NCBI GenBank assembly: GCA_022704885.1
Contig: JAKJFO010000030.1
Span: forward strand, 1 to 31,100
Reading direction: 5' to 3'
Length of the DNA: 31,100 nt
DNA from: Candidatus Rifleibacteriota bacterium
Lineage (GTDB): Bacteria > Riflebacteria > Ozemobacteria > Ozemobacterales > Ozemobacteraceae
Below, piece by piece: positions 16-7,864 of the stretch. Position 1 is the stretch's first letter; the number at the start of each line of letters is the position of its first letter. Made by a program: the position numbers and the translations under genes. The notes beneath the pieces were generated by a model. That model saw only the letters and a program-made list of their open reading frames with translations, searched no databases and had not been told where the DNA came from.

Positions 16-49
16 TTATCTTGATTGAAAATAGATAATTGTATATACT
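16..49 (+). promoter_or_regulatory. Promoter and overlapping dyad of the arsR-arsC-arsM-acr3 operon
   Basis: A sigma-70-like promoter is visible: -35 TTGATT (21-26), 17-base spacer, -10 TATACT (44-49). An inverted repeat, TTATCT (16-21) and AGATAA (33-38), covers the -35 and half of the spacer. Its arms are 7 of 8 matched when extended by two bases. The position suits an ArsR operator where bound repressor would block polymerase. The dyad and promoter are seen directly; the operator role is inferred from the arsR gene 43 bases downstream. Confidence 0.6.
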
Positions 50-91
50 TCGTTATGTGGCGAAATGTGACTTATGTTGTAAGGCGGTTAT

Positions 92-496
92 ATGAAAGAA
101 ACCCTGAATACCTTGAGAGTTCTCGCTGAAGAAAACCGTTTGCGTATATTCATGGCTCTGCATGAGCAGGAACTGTGCGTCTGCCAGATCGTTGCCCTGC
201 TGGGCCTGGCCGCTTCGACGACCTCAAAGCATCTGGCTCTGATGTATCAGGCCGGCATTCTCGATCAGCGCAAAGAAGGCCGCTGGGCGCATTACCGGGT
301 CAGTCGAGAATGGCTTGGTGGCAATGCCAGACTTGCCATCTGGCTGTCTGGCGAACTTGCTGGATCGCCCAGAATGAAATCAGACCGGGGCAGGCTTGAA
401 GAGATATTTGCAATGCCGCCGGAAAAGCTCTGCCAACCACTGGATAAGTGTGCTTCAGACAAGCCTGTTAGCAGAAGTAGAGGTAAGCAGCGATGA
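92..496 (+). CDS. arsR: ArsR family arsenic-responsive repressor
   Basis: This is a 134-aa winged-helix repressor of the ArsR/SmtB family, first gene of the rightward arsenic operon. The metal-sensing motif ELCVCQ (residues 27-32, Cys29 and Cys31) matches the alpha-3 arsenite site of classical ArsR proteins. The recognition helix follows (ASTTSKHLALM, 41-51), then the wing (KEGRWAHYRV). Two further cysteines, Cys114 and Cys120, lie in a C-terminal tail that extends beyond the usual fold and could be an extra ligand or redox pair. The stop codon overlaps the arsC start (ATGA), so the two are translationally coupled. It should repress its own promoter at 21-49 until As(III) binds. Family assignment is firm; the exact effector is inferred from the cysteine motif and neighbours. 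Confidence 0.93.
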   Translation: MKETLNTLRVLAEENRLRIFMALHEQELCVCQIVALLGLAASTTSKHLALMYQAGILDQRKEGRWAHYRVSREWLGGNARLAIWLSGELAGSPRMKSDRGRLEEIFAMPPEKLCQPLDKCASDKPVSRSRGKQR

Positions 497-918
497 AGAA
501 GCGCGTTCTATTCCTGTGTACCGGCAATTCCTGTCGCAGCCAGATGGCCGAAGCCTGGCTGCGCCATCTTCGTGGTGACGAATTCGCAGCCTTTTCTGCC
601 GGAGTAGCCACGCACGGTATGAATGAGTACGCGATATGCGTTATGAATGAGGTTGGGGTCGATATCTCAAAGCATCGATCCAAGCTGCTCAGTGAGTTCG
701 TCGGGCAAGAGTTCGATCTGGTCGTAACCGTCTGCAGCAAGGCAAACGAGAGTTGCCCGATTTTTCCAGGTAAAACCAGAGTTGTACATGTGCCATTTGA
801 TGACCCGCCGGCACTTGCCGAGGGTCTCAAAGATGAAGAGCAGATTCTCAACTGCTACCGTCGTGTTCGCGATGAAATTGCGGATTTTGTAAAACATATC
901 GAGAAAGCAGGTATTTAA
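493..918 (+). CDS. arsC: Arsenate reductase, low-molecular-weight phosphatase type
   Basis: This 141-aa cytoplasmic enzyme reduces arsenate to arsenite. The P-loop CTGNSCRS (residues 9-16) gives nucleophile Cys9 and Arg15. Cys81 and Cys88 lie exactly where the resolving pair Cys82/Cys89 sits in the S. aureus pI258 ArsC, so the thioredoxin-coupled disulfide cascade appears complete. The FDDPP motif near residue 102 carries the general-acid aspartate. A GAGG Shine-Dalgarno lies about 9 bases before the ATG, which overlaps the arsR stop. arsM follows with no gap. Its product is the substrate for the ArsM and Acr3 encoded next. The three cysteines argue against an ordinary tyrosine phosphatase. 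Confidence 0.95.
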   Translation: MKKRVLFLCTGNSCRSQMAEAWLRHLRGDEFAAFSAGVATHGMNEYAICVMNEVGVDISKHRSKLLSEFVGQEFDLVVTVCSKANESCPIFPGKTRVVHVPFDDPPALAEGLKDEEQILNCYRRVRDEIADFVKHIEKAGI

Positions 919-1710
919 ATGGATTTTAAAGTCATTAAAGACGACGAAATACGTCAGCAGGTAAGTCAGAGATACGCAAAAGTTGCTGCTGGTGGCGGCG
1001 GCTGCTGCGGCCCATCTACCGGCTGTTGTGCTGATCCTTTCGGGCACCCGGAGGTGTCTGAAAAGCTTGGTTATTCAGGTGCCGACATCGCGGGAGTGCC
1101 AGAAGGCGCCAACATGGGCCTTGGTTGCGGTAATCCACAGGTGCTCGCGCAACTCAAACCAGGCGAGACGGTTCTCGATCTCGGCAGCGGCGGCGGGTTT
1201 GACTGCTTTCTGGCTGCCCGCCAGGTCGGCGTTGAGGGCAAAGTGATCGGTGTCGATATGACTCCAGAAATGATCAGCAAAGCTCGAAAAAACGCCATGA
1301 ACGGCGGATTCGCCAATGTTGAATTCAGACTTGGCGAAATCGAGCATCTGCCAGTGGCCGACAACAGCGTTGATGTAATCATTTCAAACTGTGTAATCAA
1401 CCTCTCTCCCGACAAGCCTGCGGTATTTGCAGAGGCATACAGGGTGCTGCGCCCGCAGGGCCGCATAGCTGTTTCTGATGTGGTAGCGCTCAAACCGTTG
1501 CCGGGAAAGATGCAGAACAGCCAGGAAGCATACTGCGACTGCGTGGCCGGCTCGATTTCGGTCGGCGAACTAGAACAGATTCTGATCAGGCAAGGCTTCG
1601 ATTCTGTTCGGGTCGATCTCAAGCCCGAGAGCGCAGAATTCATCAAAACCTGGTTCCACGACGCCGAGAAGTATGTTTGCTCTGCTTCGATCAAGGCGAT
1701 CAAAAGCTGA
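919..1710 (+). CDS. arsM: Arsenite S-adenosylmethionine methyltransferase
   Basis: This 263-aa enzyme methylates As(III), with S-adenosylmethionine as methyl donor, to mono- and dimethylated arsenicals. The N-terminus has a glycine-cysteine-rich segment with two CC pairs (29-30 and 36-37). It is followed by the ArsM signature PEGANMGLGCGNP (Cys70), the SAM-binding motif DLGSGGGFD (87-95), SNCVINL (Cys158) and YCDCVAG (Cys206/Cys208). Cys70, Cys158 and Cys208 match the three conserved arsenite-binding cysteines of characterised ArsM enzymes. The start follows the arsC stop directly. A hairpin lies in the 76-base gap before acr3. Making methylarsenite here fits the presence of an ArsP-type permease in the opposing cluster, since ArsP proteins export methylarsenite. 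Confidence 0.95.
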   Translation: MDFKVIKDDEIRQQVSQRYAKVAAGGGGCCGPSTGCCADPFGHPEVSEKLGYSGADIAGVPEGANMGLGCGNPQVLAQLKPGETVLDLGSGGGFDCFLAARQVGVEGKVIGVDMTPEMISKARKNAMNGGFANVEFRLGEIEHLPVADNSVDVIISNCVINLSPDKPAVFAEAYRVLRPQGRIAVSDVVALKPLPGKMQNSQEAYCDCVAGSISVGELEQILIRQGFDSVRVDLKPESAEFIKTWFHDAEKYVCSASIKAIKS

Positions 1711-1723
1711 AAACTATCGACTA

Positions 1724-1747
1724 AATGCCGTCCCGGAGCGCGGCATT
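1724..1747 (+). other. Hairpin between arsM and acr3
   Basis: Arms AATGCCG (1724-1730) and CGGCATT (1741-1747) pair perfectly around a 10-base loop. No T-run follows, so it is not a standard intrinsic terminator. A role in mRNA processing or in setting the arsM/acr3 ratio is possible but not shown. Confidence 0.4.
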
Positions 1748-1786
1748 CAGCCGTCAGTCTGAATAGGATGATATCAGGAGCGTAAT

Positions 1787-3004
1787 ATGAGTGAGAATAT
1801 TGAAAATAAAGAACGGCAGATGACCAGCATATTCGAAAAATATCTGTCACTGTGGGTTTTTCTATGTATTGTCGGCGGCATCATTCTTGGAAAAGTAGCA
1901 CCAGATCTGGCTAAGACTCTTGACGGCATGTCGATTTTTGTCAATGGCGCGCCAGTGGTTTCTATACCGATTGCAATTTGTCTCTTTCTGATGATGTACC
2001 CGATCATGGTTAAGATTGACTTTGCCGAAGTGGTTAAAGCTGGCAAAAGCGGCACTCCGGTCATTCTTACTTTAATTGTAAACTGGGCAATCAAGCCTTT
2101 TACCATGTATGCGATTGCCTATTTTTTTCTAGGCTACCTTCTGCAGTCTTTTATTGGTGCTGATGCCGTCGATCTCGTCAAAATGCCTTTTGGCCTTGAT
2201 CTTGATGTCGGTGCCGTGCATGGTGCCGGCACTGTCGTTCTGCAGGACGGAGCTAAAATGCTGCAGGTCCCTCTCTGGCGCAGTTTCTTCGCTGGCACAA
2301 TTCTTCTCGGCATCGCTCCCTGCACCGCGATGGTGCTGGTATGGGGTTATCTGTCGCGGGGCAACGATGGCCTGACTCTGGTTATGGTTGCCATAAACTC
2401 TTTAACCATGCTGCTGCTTTACGGCCCTCTTGGCGGTTATCTTCTTGGAGTTGGCAAATTGCCGGTTCCGTGGCAGGCGCTGTTGTTGTCGATCGCTATT
2501 TATGTCGCTCTTCCGCTGGTTGCCGGTCACTTTTCGCGGAAGTGGATTCTCGCAAGTAAAGGCGAAGCCTGGTTCAAAGAAAAGTTTCTTGGTTTTCTCA
2601 CGCCGGTCACTATTCTTGCGCTTTTAACCACCCTTGTACTGCTTTTCTCATTCAAGGGTGAGATAATTGTCGCGAACCCTTTAATGATACTCTGGATAGC
2701 CATTCCTCTAACTATTCAGACTCTTTTCATTTTTGCGCTTGGTTATATTGCCGCAAAGTATCTTGGTCTGAAATACGAAGATGCTGCACCGGCAGCCATG
2801 ATCGGCGCTTCCAACCATTTTGAGGTGGCCATCGCTACCGCAGTCATGCTGTTTGGTCTGTCTTCAGGCGCTGCACTGGCTACAGTAGTGGGTGTTTTGA
2901 TCGAAGTGCCGATAATGCTCATGCTCGTGCGTTTCTGCCTCAAAACTCAACACTGGTTTAAACCACCTGGTGCTGACGAACGGAATGAGGCGATTGGATC
3001 CTGA
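1787..3004 (+). CDS. acr3: Acr3 family arsenite efflux permease
   Basis: This is a 405-aa, about ten-helix inner-membrane antiporter of the Acr3 (BART) family that exports arsenite. It opens with the family's [15 protein letters not shown] first helix, and [14 protein letters not shown] (Cys179) carries the essential helix-4 cysteine. The late motif [17 protein letters not shown] is the conserved Acr3 sequence near helix 9. Between helices 3 and 4 there are about 50 residues (118-168) where Acr3 proteins I can recall have roughly 12-20, so a loop insertion is likely. AGGAG lies 6 bases before the ATG. It is the last gene of the arsR operon and is followed by a strong terminator. Confidence 0.94.
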
Positions 3005-3072: not shown

Positions 3073-3141
3073 TCTCGTCATGGCATATGCTGCCAGCAAC
3101 TGTTGCTGCCTTACTGTCGCAAATTAGCTGGAGTCATCAGG

Positions 3142-3663
3142 ATGAGCCAACCAGGAGAAATAAATTTTCCTCGCCCCTTTCGTGGACTTGGTCTGGGAGA
3201 ACACCGGTTTCTGACTCTATTGCCGGTTGCGCTGGATAGTCCGGCGGTGCGGCTCATCGAGACCAATGCTTTTCCTGTTTCTTTCCTGATGAAGCGTGCC
3301 AGAATCTGGCTGCTTGCTAAAGAGGGCTTTTGCTGGATTGATGAGACCGTTCCCTGCATCGTCCTGACTCAGCATTATTACCAGAACGGAAACGATCTCG
3401 ATCTATATCTCGACCTTCTCCATGAACTGACCCACATCAGGCAGATATTCGAAGGCAGAGATGTCTGGGAAGAAAAAATCCCTTACCATAGACGGCCAAC
3501 TGAAATTGAAGGATATGCTGTGGCGGTTGCCGAAGGCCGCAGACTGGGCATGGATGAACTCGCCATCATTAAACATCTCAGCAACCCATGGATGACCACT
3601 GATCAGGTTGCGGAACTGCTGAAGAGCGTAAATAACTTTCTTGCGGAATCAGGGCGACTATAG
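3142..3663 (+). CDS. Uncharacterised HExxH protein, putative zinc metallopeptidase
   Basis: I do not recognise a named family for this 173-aa protein. It has a zincin signature HELTH (residues 94-98) and a second conserved-looking block PTEIEGYAVAVAEGRR (119-133), where Glu121 or Glu123 is placed like the third zinc ligand of a gluzincin. There is no signal peptide or membrane helix, so it should be cytoplasmic. The ATG at 3142 is chosen because GGAG lies 8 bases before it; an in-frame TTG at 3103 has no such support. It sits between the two convergent arsenic operons, but the strong acr3 terminator suggests separate transcription. The catalytic role is inferred from the motif only. Confidence 0.7.
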   Translation: MSQPGEINFPRPFRGLGLGEHRFLTLLPVALDSPAVRLIETNAFPVSFLMKRARIWLLAKEGFCWIDETVPCIVLTQHYYQNGNDLDLYLDLLHELTHIRQIFEGRDVWEEKIPYHRRPTEIEGYAVAVAEGRRLGMDELAIIKHLSNPWMTTDQVAELLKSVNNFLAESGRL

Positions 3664-3693: not shown

Positions 3694-4389
3694 TCAAAGC
3701 CCGGCGAAGCTGATGCCGTAAATGTGCGCCAGAGTATAATAGAGGCCAGCGACGATGAAGATTATGCCGGTAGCGGTTCTTACGTAGAATTCGATGTGAT
3801 TGAGGCTTTTGAAGGCTTTTCCGAGCCATTTGCTGCTGAAGGCGATCAGAAAAGCAAAAAATACCACTGGTATTGCCGTGCCAATGCCGTATAGAGCCGG
3901 CAAGAGCAATGAAGAATTGTTGCTTACGGCGAGCGGGATCAGGGCACCAAAAAACAAACCGGCCGATACCGGGCAAAAAGAAAGGGCGAAGAGAATTCCC
4001 AGTGGAAATGCATATAAAGCGCCGCGTTTGGACGCCTTCTGTTGAATTTCCTCACCGGCCATCTGGATACTCAAACCACTTCCAATGAGGCCAAGCAGAA
4101 TCATTCCCAGCAAAATCAACAGTGGACCAAGAATTTCGTTAAGATATTTCTGCAGGAATCTTGAAAGTTCGCCACTGGCAAGGACCCCCGATGAAAGCAA
4201 CGCGCCAAGAGCAAGGTAGGTAAGGGTTCTGCCGGTGGTGTATAAAAGCCCTGAAAACAGGATGGCGGTTTTACTGTGGAGTTGCCTGCCAATGAATGAA
4301 ATCGCGGCGACGTTAGAGGCCAGCGGACATGGGCTGATTGCCGTAAGAATACCCAGCCAGGCTGCAGTAGTTATGCTTACCCAGGTCAT
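3694..4389 (-). CDS. arsG: CcdA/DsbD-type membrane protein, ArsG family permease
   Basis: This is a 231-aa, about six-helix membrane protein with the CcdA/DsbD transmembrane architecture. The paired redox cysteines are both next to proline: ISPCPLASN (Cys21) in helix 1 and LSFCPVSAG (Cys139) in helix 4. In CcdA and DsbD this pair passes electrons from cytoplasmic thioredoxin to the periplasm. An ArsF-like partner directly upstream (the start overlaps its stop by 4 bases) places it with the ArsG branch, linked in Shewanella to handling of aromatic arsenicals. Known: the fold and the cysteine logic. Inferred: whether this protein moves electrons, an arsenical, or both. It is the last gene of the leftward arsenic operon. 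A plain cytochrome c biogenesis CcdA is the main alternative. Confidence 0.78.
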   Translation of the reverse strand: MTWVSITTAAWLGILTAISPCPLASNVAAISFIGRQLHSKTAILFSGLLYTTGRTLTYLALGALLSSGVLASGELSRFLQKYLNEILGPLLILLGMILLGLIGSGLSIQMAGEEIQQKASKRGALYAFPLGILFALSFCPVSAGLFFGALIPLAVSNNSSLLLPALYGIGTAIPVVFFAFLIAFSSKWLGKAFKSLNHIEFYVRTATGIIFIVAGLYYTLAHIYGISFAGL

Positions 4390-4889
4390 TTGTTGTCTCC
4401 ATTGATTTTACCAAGGGCTTTTTTGACTGCATCTGCAACATAAATATCAAACTCGGCCGGCTTTTCAAGCAGCGGCCAGACGTCGTCAAGACGGTTAAAT
4501 TCCAGGATTTCATCACCCTGAACGACGCTGACAACAATACAGCTCGCGACAACGTCAAACTTTTTCGCCAGAGCTTCATTTTCCTGGAAGTTAATTTCTT
4601 CCCAGAGTATTTTTTTGCTGGTCCAGGCATCGGCAAAATCGCGTTCTACCAGCAGTTTTGCTCTGCTCTCAATGCTGTTGCAGGTCACACAGCGAAAGGT
4701 TGCGTGCATATAAAAGATCTTAACCAGCCGCTCGGCAGAAGTTGTGCCGCCATTGCTGGCGGCAACCATGTTTCCGTTGACGGTCCCTGTAACCACACTG
4801 TGTTTGCCGAGTGCATAGCCGATTGATACCAGCACAAAGGCCAGCAACAGGTAGGTTATTAACTTTTTGTATTTTTCACTTAACTGCAT
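4386..4889 (-). CDS. arsF: ArsF-like membrane-anchored CxxC protein
   Basis: This 167-aa protein has one N-terminal anchor helix (about residues 10-28) and an exported thioredoxin-like domain. The key block FYMHATFRCVTCNSIE (59-74) has the CVTC pair Cys67/Cys70 and matches the ArsF family, annotated as a subunit of a nitrophenyl-arsenical reductase. A third cysteine, Cys117, lies in a beta-strand (VVASCIVVS), where thioredoxins usually have their cis-proline loop. It overlaps the ArsG-like gene by 4 bases, which suggests the two proteins act together, with CcdA/ArsG passing electrons to CVTC. The ArsEFG assignment rests on family memory and gene order, not on a search. Confidence 0.75.
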   Translation of the reverse strand: MQLSEKYKKLITYLLLAFVLVSIGYALGKHSVVTGTVNGNMVAASNGGTTSAERLVKIFYMHATFRCVTCNSIESRAKLLVERDFADAWTSKKILWEEINFQENEALAKKFDVVASCIVVSVVQGDEILEFNRLDDVWPLLEKPAEFDIYVADAVKKALGKINGDNK

Positions 4890-4938
4890 ATCTACAAAAA
4901 CTTACTGATTAGTCTCTACCGGGCAGCCCTGGCTGAGA

Positions 4939-5472
4939 TTATTCACCTTTTGCGGCTTCTGAAGCGTTTTCTGGCGTTGCAGCTTCAGGGGATGATGTCT
5001 CGCTGGCATTAGAAGCCTTCAGAATGCCGAGTTCAGACCACTTGGCAAGCACATCCTCTTCAGAAATAAAGCCAGTATGGCGGAACAGTTCTTTATTTTC
5101 ACTGTCGAGAAAAATCTGAGTCGGTATTGACTGTATTCCATGGCTTCTGGCGAGATCTTGATTCTCAGTTACCCAGACATCGACAAATTCAGTTTTAAAT
5201 TTGTCAGCGTGGTTTTTTGCCAAAGCCTCAAGAACTGGTTCCATGGCTTTGCATGCCTTACATTGTTTTGAGCCGAAGTCGATTATGCGGGGAAGTTTGA
5301 GGGCATCGGTGTCGGATGCTGATGAAGTTGCCGGAGCTGCCAGCTGATTTGCTGATTCACTGATCTGTGCGGCAGGTTGTGCTGGCGTAGTTGTTTCTGA
5401 AGCAGCGCCACAGACTGATGAAAGAAAAAGAGAGGTGGCGAGAAAGACATAACTGATGTTACTTAATTTCAT
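4939..5472 (-). CDS. Exported thioredoxin-like protein
   Basis: This 177-aa protein has a signal peptide (residues 1-24, ending CGAAS), an Ala/Ser/Thr/Pro linker (about 25-58) and a thioredoxin domain. Its active site is GSKQCKACKAME (CKAC, 71-74), and SIPTQIF gives cis-Pro117. A short acidic, alanine-rich tail follows. The ATG at 5472 is chosen over one 27 bases upstream because AAAGGA lies 7 bases before it and the signal peptide then starts cleanly. CxxC with two lysine-flanked cysteines resembles thioredoxins that receive electrons from CcdA/DsbD. In this operon it is a likely periplasmic electron carrier between the ArsG-like membrane protein and a terminal substrate. Confidence 0.85.
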   Translation of the reverse strand: MKLSNISYVFLATSLFLSSVCGAASETTTPAQPAAQISESANQLAAPATSSASDTDALKLPRIIDFGSKQCKACKAMEPVLEALAKNHADKFKTEFVDVWVTENQDLARSHGIQSIPTQIFLDSENKELFRHTGFISEEDVLAKWSELGILKASNASETSSPEAATPENASEAAKGE

Positions 5473-5489
5473 AGCTGATTCCTTTGACA

Positions 5490-5870
5490 CTATTGGCATA
5501 AACCCAGCAGCTCGGCTGCTTTGTCACAGACCCTGGCAATATTTTCCTGATTGACTTCTGTCTGGCCTTTTTTGAAGCCAATTTCAGTAACCATAAGGTG
5601 CTTGAAGTTGGTAAGGCCTTTTTCTTCGAGAGTTTTTCGGGCGCAATTCAACGGGCAGCCGTCAATGACGAGCACTTCGTCAGCACCTTCGGTGCTCTTT
5701 ATAAAGCCACTGATGTTGCCGCCGATTCCGGCGAGACAGGACATGGCGCCTTTCTTGTCGCGACTGAGCTGGCGGGCCGAGCGGTCAGCCAGTTCGCCGA
5801 CATCTGCAGCGCCGGAACAGGTGTAAATAAGAGCCGGACTGCCGCCGCAGGCACAGGTAATTCCTGACAT
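5490..5870 (-). CDS. Cysteine-rich DGC-domain putative zinc-binding protein
   Basis: This 126-aa cytoplasmic protein of the DGC family has eight cysteines (6, 8, 18, 45, 72, 76, 115, 125). The signature IDGCPLNCARKTLE spans 69-82, and the N-terminus has CAC (6-8) and YTCSG. The family is annotated as zinc-binding with no firm function, and its members often sit beside arsenical permeases and CcdA-like proteins. The number of cysteines would allow tight binding of a soft metal or metalloid such as As(III). AAGGAG lies 8 bases before the ATG. By position it could be the ArsE partner of the ArsF/ArsG pair; I cannot confirm this. Confidence 0.75.
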   Translation of the reverse strand: MSGITCACGGSPALIYTCSGAADVGELADRSARQLSRDKKGAMSCLAGIGGNISGFIKSTEGADEVLVIDGCPLNCARKTLEEKGLTNFKHLMVTEIGFKKGQTEVNQENIARVCDKAAELLGLCQ

Positions 5871-5882
5871 GCTCTTTGCTCC

Positions 5883-6113
5883 TTATTTGAGGTGCTTCTT
5901 GATTTCTTCGACGCCTGGCACTTTGCCGGCGAATTTGACATTTCCGTCAACAGCCAGAGCCGGGGTAATCATGACGCCAAAGCCCATGATTTCGTTGATA
6001 TCAGTGACCTTTACCATTTCATAGCTCAGGCCGAGTTCTTTAGCAGCCTGTTCGGCTTCTGCTGCAAGCTTGTGGCACTTCGGGCAACCTGTTCCAAGAA
6101 TCTGAATCTTCAT
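5883..6113 (-). CDS. Small CPKC thioredoxin-like redox protein
   Basis: This 76-aa glutaredoxin-like protein is of the small redox-active disulfide type (MTH895/TM0996-like). ILGTGCPKCHKL carries the CPKC active site at residues 10-13, and ITPALAVDG supplies the cis-proline. It has no signal peptide, so it is cytoplasmic. The start at 6113 gives the family's usual MKIQILG opening, with GGAGG 12 bases upstream; an ATG at 6131 that overlaps the permease stop by one base would add six residues. In many genomes such proteins lie beside DUF318/ArsP permeases, as here. It may reduce or load the substrate of the permease, or feed electrons to the CcdA-like protein. Confidence 0.85.
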   Translation of the reverse strand: MKIQILGTGCPKCHKLAAEAEQAAKELGLSYEMVKVTDINEIMGFGVMITPALAVDGNVKFAGKVPGVEEIKKHLK

Positions 6114-6130
6114 AATATTGATGACCTCCA

Positions 6131-7435
6131 TCAGCTGAAAAATGTTCCGAATATCACACCCAAAATGGTGGAAAATACGATTACCAGCAATACAAACGCG
6201 AACGTCTTTTTGTTACCCAGGACGCTGCGGATAACCAGCATGTTGGGCAGGCTCAATGCTGGACCAGCGAGCAGAAGTGCCAGCGCCGGGCCTTTTCCCA
6301 TGCCGCTGCCAATGAGCCCCTGCAAAATCGGCACTTCGGTCAGTGTCGCAAAATACATGAAAGCACCGACAAATGACGCCAGAAAATTAGACATTATTGA
6401 ATTCCCGCCGACAGCGGTAGCGATCCATTCAGAGGGAATCAGGCCTTCGTAACCGACTCGGCCCAGCAATACGCCGGCAACCAGAACGCCGAACAGCAGC
6501 AGCGGCAGAATCTGTTTGGCAAAATCGTAAGATGATGAGAACCACTCGCCAAGTTCGCCTTCATCAATACTGGTAAAAATGGTCAGGCCAAGAGTGCCGG
6601 CAGTAAATGAAATAAGCGGGTCTGACGGGTACAGGTAACTGAGAGTCGCGACGGCTGAACCGGTAAGAACGGCTTTCCAGGCCTTAAGACGGAACCATGC
6701 AACCAGAATTACTCCGAGAAGAATTGCAAACCCGCTGGTAATTGCCCATTTTGCACTATAAATGTTTGCCCAGAGACCTTCGGGGGCCTGCGGTTTGCCC
6801 CAATTGGCAAATACCAGAATGAATACCATCGAAGCAAAGTATAGTGAATCCTGCCAGAGAGCCCGTTTAATTTCAGGCTCAGGCATCATCATCTGTGCAG
6901 CAGCCTTGGCTTCTTCTTCTTTTCTGAACAGCAGATGCATCGAATAGCCGATGAATATGCTGAGAAAAACCGCGCCAAATGCGCGGGCAATGCCGAGTTC
7001 GGGGCCGAGAATGCGCGCGGTCAGAACAATTGCCAGAACGTTGATTGCCGGGCCAGAATACAGAAATGCGCAGGCGGGACCGAGCCCGGCGCCCATTTTA
7101 TAAATACCCGAAAACAGCGGCAGAATTGTGCAGGAACAGACGGCGAGAATTGTGCCAGAAACCGCGGCCACGCCGTAAGCAAGCATTTTGTTGGCTTTGG
7201 CGCCGAGGTATTTCATGACTGAGGCCTGGCTGATGAAAACGCCGATGGCGCCGGCGATGAAGAAGGCCGGTATCAGGCAGAGCAGAACGTGTTCCTGCGC
7301 GTACCACTTGACCAGATGAAAGGCCTCAAGAACGGCGTTATCAAAGCGTGGTGTGCCGACTGGCAGATAATAGCAGGCGAGAAAAACAATGGTGATGGTA
7401 AGAAAGCTTTTCCATTCTCTTTTCCAGTAGTTCAT
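6131..7435 (-). CDS. ArsP_1/DUF318-type permease
   Basis: This is a 434-aa polytopic inner-membrane permease with two homologous halves. The first half has AVCSCTILPLFSG (Cys100, Cys102) and CAFLYSGPAINVL (Cys122); the second has the matching LAGPALSLPNMLVI. A charged cytoplasmic loop (RKEEEAKAAAQ, 171-181) divides them. SCT...SGPAIN is the signature of the family that includes the methylarsenite exporter ArsP. The gene starts 2 bases after the ArsR stop and overlaps the CPKC gene. With ArsM encoded 5 kb away, export of methylated or aromatic As(III) is a reasonable inference, but many family members have no known substrate. The short spacing implies one operon from 7800 to 3694. Confidence 0.85.
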   Translation of the reverse strand: MNYWKREWKSFLTITIVFLACYYLPVGTPRFDNAVLEAFHLVKWYAQEHVLLCLIPAFFIAGAIGVFISQASVMKYLGAKANKMLAYGVAAVSGTILAVCSCTILPLFSGIYKMGAGLGPACAFLYSGPAINVLAIVLTARILGPELGIARAFGAVFLSIFIGYSMHLLFRKEEEAKAAAQMMMPEPEIKRALWQDSLYFASMVFILVFANWGKPQAPEGLWANIYSAKWAITSGFAILLGVILVAWFRLKAWKAVLTGSAVATLSYLYPSDPLISFTAGTLGLTIFTSIDEGELGEWFSSSYDFAKQILPLLLFGVLVAGVLLGRVGYEGLIPSEWIATAVGGNSIMSNFLASFVGAFMYFATLTEVPILQGLIGSGMGKGPALALLLAGPALSLPNMLVIRSVLGNKKTFAFVLLVIVFSTILGVIFGTFFS

Positions 7436-7437
7436 GA

Positions 7438-7800
7438 TCAGGCCTCCATAGGCTCTTTGACTTTGTTGTGTCTGTGCTGGCGGTTGATGATTCTGGAACG
7501 GTTTTTAATGTTTTCGGCGACTTCTCTGCCGATGCAGTTGAGAAATGCTGGCAGACACTGCATGCGCAGGCGGTAAAACACCATCAGGCCACGCTTTTCG
7601 ACCTCGACCAGACCGGCATTCTTGAGCACTGCAAGGTGCTTGGAAATCGTCGAAAAATCAGCCTTGATCGCTTCGACGAACTTGCACACACACTGTTCGC
7701 CGCGGGCGAGTTCTTCGATGATGTAAAGGCGGGTAGGGTGGGCGAGGGCTTTGAGTATCTCGGTCTTGGCTTCGATCAGCACTTTCTGTTCGTCGTTCAT
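7438..7800 (-). CDS. arsR: ArsR family repressor of the leftward operon
   Basis: This 120-aa winged-helix repressor is distinct in sequence from the first ArsR. GEQCVCKF (Cys37, Cys39) is the metalloid-sensing pair at the start of the DNA-binding region, followed by the helix ADFSTISKHLAVLK (47-60) and the wing (KRGLMVFYRL). Two more cysteines, Cys82 and Cys89 (MQCLPAFLNCI), lie on the dimerisation helix and could complete a different binding site, as seen in repressors selective for trivalent organoarsenicals; that selectivity is only a suggestion. It is the first gene of the leftward operon and faces a perfect 15-bp inverted repeat 17 bases before its start, so autoregulation is very likely. 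Confidence 0.93.
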   Translation of the reverse strand: MNDEQKVLIEAKTEILKALAHPTRLYIIEELARGEQCVCKFVEAIKADFSTISKHLAVLKNAGLVEVEKRGLMVFYRLRMQCLPAFLNCIGREVAENIKNRSRIINRQHRHNKVKEPMEA

Positions 7801-7817: not shown

Positions 7818-7851
7818 ATTACTTGGTTATTTGGTAAAATAACCAAGTAAT
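7818..7851. promoter_or_regulatory. Perfect 15-bp inverted repeat, probable ArsR operator
   Basis: Arms ATTACTTGGTTATTT (7818-7832) and AAATAACCAAGTAAT (7837-7851) are exact reverse complements around GGTA. The repeat covers the -10 element and ten bases of the spacer of the leftward promoter. It is not found elsewhere in the window, including in front of the other arsR, so the two repressors probably have separate targets. Confidence 0.85.
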
Positions 7852-7864
7852 GCCGGATTGTCAA
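7836..7864 (-). promoter_or_regulatory. Promoter of the leftward arsenic operon
   Basis: On the minus strand, a perfect -35 TTGACA (7864-7859), a 17-base spacer and -10 TATTTT (7841-7836) precede the arsR start by about 36 bases. The operator palindrome overlies the -10. Confidence 0.8.

Follow-up and report, generated by a model that had tools for sequence, protein, structure and literature searches.

A seven-gene ArsR-headed operon of Riflebacteria combines arsEFG with an ArsP-type permease and suggests an outward thiol-electron relay in arsenical export

The redox proteins ArsE, ArsF and ArsG reportedly received the joint name ArsEFG from Chen, Zhang and Rosen in 2019, and a 2016 study is said to have dealt with the ars operon of Bacteroides vulgatus. 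Here we analyze a seven-gene operon in a 31,100-nucleotide stretch of DNA (the window) from a Candidatus Rifleibacteriota bacterium (GenBank assembly GCA_022704885.1, contig JAKJFO010000030.1, positions 1 to 31,100). By its family matches this operon is arsEFG joined to genes for an ArsR regulator, an ArsP_1 permease, a DGC protein and an exported thioredoxin with a CKAC motif (CKAC). The main text of Castillo & Saier 2010 (PMC2963123) describes eight instances, from seven organisms, of ars operons with a trio of CcdA, thioredoxin and redox-active disulfide protein 2; there the trio is read as support for arsenate reductase, with transmembrane flow thought less likely, and ArsP is found in two forms, some 300 and some 400 amino acids long. 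As described in that text, the trio is very probably the same as ArsG, ArsF and ArsE. A section of a review further reports that the Campylobacter ArsP exports methylarsenite (PMC6205960). The three central redox genes are already known and the operon is an enlarged form of an established system; that it combines arsenical export with an outward relay of thiol electrons is a reading to which we give an even chance.

All seven genes are intact and lie on the minus strand at 3694-7800, packed nearly without gaps, as the initial annotation had described them; the largest gap is 49 nucleotides, and overlaps of 1, 10 and 4 nucleotides occur at three junctions. The first gene (7438-7800) encodes the metalloregulator ArsR (NF033788, 85 bits, cut-off 55; also PF01022) with a Cys37-x-Cys39 motif and Cys82 and Cys89. 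It is followed by the permease of the ArsP_1/DUF318 family (6131-7435; 434 amino acids; PF03773, 243 bits, cut-off 32.3), which carries Cys100-x-Cys102 and Cys53 and belongs to the family that presumably also includes the Campylobacter ArsP. The next gene (5883-6131) encodes the thioredoxin-like protein that had been described only as a cytoplasmic CPKC protein; the protein is present, but its proper name is ArsE itself (TIGR00412, "MTH895/ArsE family", 108.2 bits, cut-off 62). Then come the DGC protein with eight cysteines (5490-5870; PF08859, 108.1 bits, cut-off 27), CKAC with Cys80/Cys83 and an N-terminal hydrophobic segment (4939-5499; PF13098/PF00085), the membrane-anchored RCVTC protein ArsF with Cys117 at the cis-proline position (4386-4889; NF040494, 76.7 bits, cut-off 60), and the CcdA-like membrane protein ArsG with Cys21-Pro22 and Cys139-Pro140 (3694-4389; NF040495, 267.7 bits, cut-off 200). 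The matches of ArsE, ArsF and ArsG are thus all above the curated NCBIfam cut-offs.

In a scan of genome contigs 410 ArsG places were confirmed. The 80 best of them, together with the window, make up a set of 81 loci that leans to close relatives; the closest relative of the window's ArsG comes from Candidatus Riflebacteria (92% identity). Every open frame of these loci, many of which are cut by contig ends, was searched with profiles made from the proteins of the window itself. The exact seven-gene order, which the initial annotation had proposed to look for in other genomes, recurs in 16 of the 81 loci, the window counted; the records carry the titles Riflebacteria, Lentisphaerae/Victivallales, Verrucomicrobia, Kiritimatiellae, Desulfobacteraceae and Neomarinimicrobiota, and one of the 16 loci (L047) has a DGC frame that is both short and broken. 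Because of this recurrence the arrangement is, on the evidence of gene order, not due to chance. Where 4.5 kb or more lies upstream of ArsG (56 loci), ArsF is present in 54, ArsE in 52, the permease in 47, ArsR in 43, CKAC in 38 and DGC in 21 (the call in L062 being doubtful); 14 of them show the full seven-gene order, 14 lack only DGC, 10 have the order ArsR-permease-ArsE-ArsF-ArsG and 18 are arranged otherwise. Judged from these loci, the core of the operon is ArsR, permease, ArsE, ArsF and ArsG, whereas DGC and CKAC are optional additions, which makes the full set of seven one state of a varying operon. On the ArsG tree of 54 loci, DGC was gained or lost 17 times, 14 of which are required by branches with support, and CKAC was gained or lost 6 times. 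The ArsG of one Desulfobacteraceae locus (L034) is nested in a Verrucomicrobiota/Kiritimatiellota clade, suggesting horizontal transfer of the operon. Another locus (L009, genome G003) is titled Candidatus Methylomirabilis, while its ArsG groups with Riflebacteria and the genome is listed in the phylum of genome G002, so that either its title or its binning could be in error. In L012, L025, L031, L041 and L038 a second ArsG-like frame, partial at least in L038, lies downstream near other ars genes and may be a remnant or a duplicate.

Cys21 and Cys139 of ArsG are invariant (81/81), consistent with its earlier description as a CcdA/ArsG-like protein with two Cys-Pro motifs. Foldseek ranks CcdA (5vkv) first for its predicted structure (of moderate confidence; predicted local distance difference test score, pLDDT, 70), with probability 1.00, E 9.8e-3 and TM 0.54/0.56, and the next match is at E 0.48. 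ArsG is therefore likely, though not surely, of CcdA-like fold, and because CcdA is the best PDB match of its model we favor an electron transporter over the permease that its name implies. The sequences nonetheless do not merge with those of known CcdA proteins: in the tree ArsG (24 rows, support 98/90) and CcdA/DsbD (13 rows, 97/89) occupy opposite sides, ArsG forming a separate clade that is joined on its side by three other PF13386 (DsbD_2) proteins. This also answers the question, raised in the initial annotation, whether ArsG clusters firmly with the CcdA of cytochrome c biogenesis; it does not, and lies outside the CcdA/DsbD clade. Cys21 aligns with the first redox cysteine in all 13 CcdA/DsbD rows, with the second cysteine two columns off, and a Pfam search at E 0.01 gave no PF02683 (DsbD_TM) match, only PF13386 (55 bits). 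A DsbD_2-family match in L083 (G007:C404) is broken by one in-frame TGA, which might be a true break or mark a selenoprotein.

The claims that CKAC is exported and the CVTC protein anchored are both supported: a hydrophobic N-terminal segment is found in 50 of 53 CKAC sequences (a lipobox-like motif in 15/53), and 76 of 77 ArsF sequences with RCxxC begin with a membrane anchor. The redox cysteines are also well conserved, namely Cys67/Cys70 of ArsF in 77/78, Cys80/Cys83 of CKAC in 51/53 and both cysteines of the ArsE CPKC motif in 69/69; ArsE has a PDB relative in MtH895 (1ilo, E 2.2e-17). ArsF is distinguished by the loss of the thioredoxin cis-proline. None of the 78 sequences has proline at position 117, which is instead Cys (34), Ser (20), Thr (13), Gly (6), Met (4) or Ile (1), and in an HHalign comparison with the CKAC family (probability 93.9) this position pairs with Pro126 of CKAC. 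The cis-proline is kept in CKAC (Pro126) and ArsE (Pro57), in columns that are at least 90% conserved. According to a passage in a review, the cis-proline may prevent metal binding to the CxxC motif (PMC2757866).

In the permease Cys100/Cys102 are conserved in 57/59 and Cys53 in 51/59 sequences. Six of the eight DGC cysteines are conserved across loci. The AF2 (AlphaFold2) model of DGC (pLDDT 87.9) is Rossmann-like and has no clear PDB match; its conserved Cys18, Cys45 and Cys72/Cys76 lie at or just after three strand ends, an arrangement that might form a thiolate site; according to the initial annotation, DGC may hold As(III). Among 21 genomes, a biased choice picked from the loci and mostly from the long ones, DGC matches occur in 13, in 11 of these as a single copy. 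A local expansion of the family is seen at G020:C93:18521-24447 (L074, titled Acidobacteria), with four DGC matches alongside matches to ArsM and Acr3 on a single contig.

Regulation of the operon is marked by a palindromic operator. In the window its core, ACTTGGTTATTTTACCAAAT (7829-7848, minus strand), lies inside a perfect inverted repeat (7819-7850) in front of arsR, and the repeat covers the -10 element of a sigma-70-like promoter, TTGACA-17-TATTTT (7836-7864, minus strand; 10/12); taken together, promoter-like sites are no commoner in front of arsR than expected (5 found, 6.1 expected). The consensus ATTTGGyTATwTTrCCAAAT is matched at 17 or more of its 20 positions around the start of the operon's arsR in 36/52 loci, a count that is partly circular as the consensus was derived from the loci on which it was scored, while only 6 of 1000 random 135-base pieces from the same loci reach 17 of 20. 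Over 1.02 Mb, scanned on both strands so that palindromes count twice, all 69 rows of at least 17 lie beside an ArsR, permease or ArsE gene, a few of them beside an ArsR heading arsC. In the 21 whole genomes, allowing up to two mismatches, there are 20 distinct operator places in 14 genomes, 13 at the operon and 7 elsewhere; the latter all have two mismatches, and the reversed pattern gives 2 matches.

At ArsR genes heading arsC, acr3 or arsM the operator frame is the same, but GG is replaced by CG (10) or AG (4) in all 14 that score (n=18), whereas those heading the permease have GG in 33 of the 36 that score (n=50; 2 CG, 1 GC); the difference has p 7e-10 by a statistic that ignores kinship. 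The window holds both classes, GG at 7829-7848 and CG in the sister operator ACTTCGTTATGTGGCGAAAT of the neighboring ars operon (47-66, plus strand), one base pair apart per half-site. The regulators differ in parallel. In the operon's ArsR Cys37 is conserved in 52/52, Cys39 in 46/52, and Cys82 and Cys89 each in 48/52 sequences. The Cys-x-Cys motif, which we take to be the As(III) site of ArsR/SmtB regulators of the As(III) type and which Cys37/Cys39 fit, is common to the ArsR proteins heading arsC, acr3 or arsM (18/18 at both places), whereas Cys82 and Cys89 occur together in 48/50 permease-heading ArsR proteins and in 0/18 of the others. Position 48, directly before a conserved Ser-Thr-x-Ser stretch presumed to be the recognition region, is Asp in 43/50 of the former versus Ala in 14/18 of the latter. 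Because the half-sites and these ArsR residues differ between the groups, we infer two arsenic regulons that are probably kept apart and respond to different inducers.

The sister operon, arsR2-arsC-arsM-acr3, lies to the left of the seven-gene operon on the plus strand (92-3004), in keeping with the arsenic context first proposed for an ArsR-headed unit of redox proteins and a permease. It encodes the second ArsR (92-496; NF033788, 81.8 bits), an ArsC-like protein nearest to the thioredoxin-type arsenate reductases (493-918; TIGR02691, 144.8 bits, below the cut-off of 174.3), the arsenite methyltransferase ArsM (919-1710; NF008823, 346.9 bits, cut-off 263) and the arsenite exporter Acr3 (1787-3004; TIGR00832, 373.4 bits, cut-off 282.8). 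Between acr3 and arsG a plus-strand open reading frame (3103-3663) has no Pfam or NCBIfam match at E 0.01. By the profiles built for this analysis ArsC (24), ArsM (18) or Acr3 (25) is found in 36 of the 81 loci. Of the 21 genomes, 19 have an acr3 match, which exceeds the cut-off in 18; in 13 of these 19 it stands no more than 10 kb from ArsG, with about 0.1 expected (G003 is counted here on a below-cut-off fragment, and G020, at 13.6 kb, is left out). In the phylum of genome G002 (39 genomes), ArsG is above the cut-off in 8 genomes, and ArsM is over its cut-off in 7 of these 8 versus 8 of the 31 others (Fisher p 0.003; 7/9 versus 8/30 if an ArsG fragment in G034 is counted as present), while Acr3 does not differ (5/8 versus 17/31). 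Of the 7 genomes of this phylum with both, 6 have ArsM no more than 3 kb from ArsG, and 5 have an ArsM match with one internal stop, presumably the terminal codon. This co-occurrence fits, and hints at, methylarsenite export.

A transmembrane relay is plausible and now better supported than before. In such a scheme ArsR would sense a trivalent arsenical and let go of the operator; electrons would pass from cytoplasmic ArsE to ArsG and across the membrane by way of the Cys21/Cys139 pair, and ArsG would then reduce the exported CKAC thioredoxin, ArsF or both. Reduced ArsF, with a CxxC motif unshielded by a cis-proline, could take the trivalent arsenical leaving through the permease or keep it reduced, and DGC, as an optional cytoplasmic cysteine protein, may pass the arsenical to the permease. 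A trivalent and probably methylated arsenical would be the most likely natural substrate, ahead of nitro-aromatic arsenicals. A bolder version, which we regard as tentative and rather doubtful, is an organo-arsenical regulon insulated from the inorganic one by one base pair per half-site and two extra sensor cysteines, with electron-powered export in which ArsG, a CcdA-type electron carrier and no permease, keeps ArsF, a new periplasm-facing metalloid-binding thioredoxin fold (Cys67, Cys70 and, instead of the cis-proline, residue 117), in a state to accept the trivalent arsenical from the permease, and DGC is the cytoplasmic donor. Two observations weigh against the relay and its methylated substrate: in VIA-align of the ArsG model CcdA is tied with unrelated transporters, and in the mixed set of 21 genomes ArsM is over the cut-off in only 10, so that ArsM is not required.

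The published interpretation of ArsEFG is reportedly that ArsE and ArsF reduce the nitro groups of aromatic arsenicals and that ArsG is an efflux permease. The NCBIfam names of NF040494 and NF040495 agree with it, but for this operon it seems unlikely. Save for the ArsF model's own name, no nitroreductase or flavin-enzyme family is found among the seven proteins in NCBIfam and Pfam, and the operon already has a permease while the ArsG model resembles CcdA. The operon is also spread over many phyla of mostly uncultured bacteria, whereas roxarsone-type compounds are man-made, which counts against a nitro-aromatic substrate. It is likewise improbable that the unit acts on a soft metal or organometal other than arsenic (Hg, Sb, Cu/Zn) and adjoins ars genes only by way of a metal island. 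Such a role could account for the operon's own operator class and sensor cysteines, and the permease does match the models of the Cu/Zn exporter SO_0444 (NF033936) and of SaoE of the SAO system (NF040736), albeit at 110.4 bits and far under the cut-offs of 300 and 325. However, arsC, arsM or acr3 accompanies it in 36/81 loci, its operator frame is that of the arsC operons bar one base pair per half-site, and its ArsR shares the Cys-x-Cys motif with all 18 ars-linked ArsR proteins at both places.

The supply of electrons to the arsenate reductase ArsC by the ArsE/F/G trio, proposed by Castillo & Saier 2010, draws on the presence of arsC in 7 of the 8 instances in their main text (PMC2963123), and here too the neighboring operon encodes an ArsC-like protein. 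Yet ArsC is found in only 24/81 loci, many of them cut short by contig ends, the ArsR genes heading arsC use another operator class, and ArsF and CKAC bear anchor or export signals whereas ArsC is cytoplasmic, a point also remarked in that text (PMC2963123); we give this explanation a slim chance. Equally slight is the chance of a general role in periplasmic disulfide repair or cytochrome c maturation that is only incidentally under ArsR control. The resemblance of the ArsG model to CcdA would be expected under it, but not the opposite placement of ArsG and CcdA/DsbD in the tree (98/90, 97/89), and a separate PF02683 CcdA/DsbD protein is present in 12/12 genomes searched.

Relative to earlier work, what is new is the shared operator, its two classes and the associated difference in ArsR cysteines, the placement of ArsG, and an ArsF without the cis-proline; a literature search with most subscription journals outside its range turned up no description of the full set of seven genes, of the paired operators or of an ArsF lacking the cis-proline. 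If the relay and export reading is true, the database labels of ArsG (efflux permease) and ArsF (nitroreductase subunit) are wrong throughout a large family (for ArsG, 5457 of 7996 scored candidates pass E 0.001, perhaps with other DsbD_2 proteins among them), and the operon would be a transmembrane thiol relay dedicated to metalloid export. Sharp and cheap tests are at hand in two ArsR proteins of a single genome, with operators one base pair apart in each half-site, and in the cysteine pairs of ArsG and ArsF.

The initial annotation considered the unit to be more than the described three-gene system. This is true of the seven genes, but precedents exist in the trio reported in the main text of the 2010 study (PMC2963123) and in a run of genes on a Prevotella nigrescens plasmid (NZ_CP072340), and DGC and CKAC are optional. 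The Prevotella run likewise includes a winged-helix regulator, ArsF, ArsG, a thioredoxin-family protein, a permease, ArsC and Acr3; it differs in gene order, in having no DGC or CKAC annotated and in forming a single run with arsC and acr3. The term "DGC" is absent from the main text of Castillo & Saier 2010 (PMC2963123). CcdA (5vkv) ranks first among the structural matches of the ArsG model, and the first redox cysteine is common to ArsG and CcdA/DsbD, whereas ArsG stands on a separate side of the tree, has Cys-Pro rather than Pro-Cys as its second motif and lacks a PF02683 match. The methylarsenite exporter ArsP of Campylobacter appears to belong to the same ArsP_1 family (PF03773) as the permease of the window, which differs in its length of 434 amino acids. 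Finally, ArsEFG itself is matched by all three proteins here over curated cut-offs; unlike it, the operon adds ArsR, an ArsP-type permease and a conserved operator, with DGC and the exported thioredoxin as optional parts, and the chemistry suggested here is that of a relay, not of nitroreduction with efflux by ArsG.

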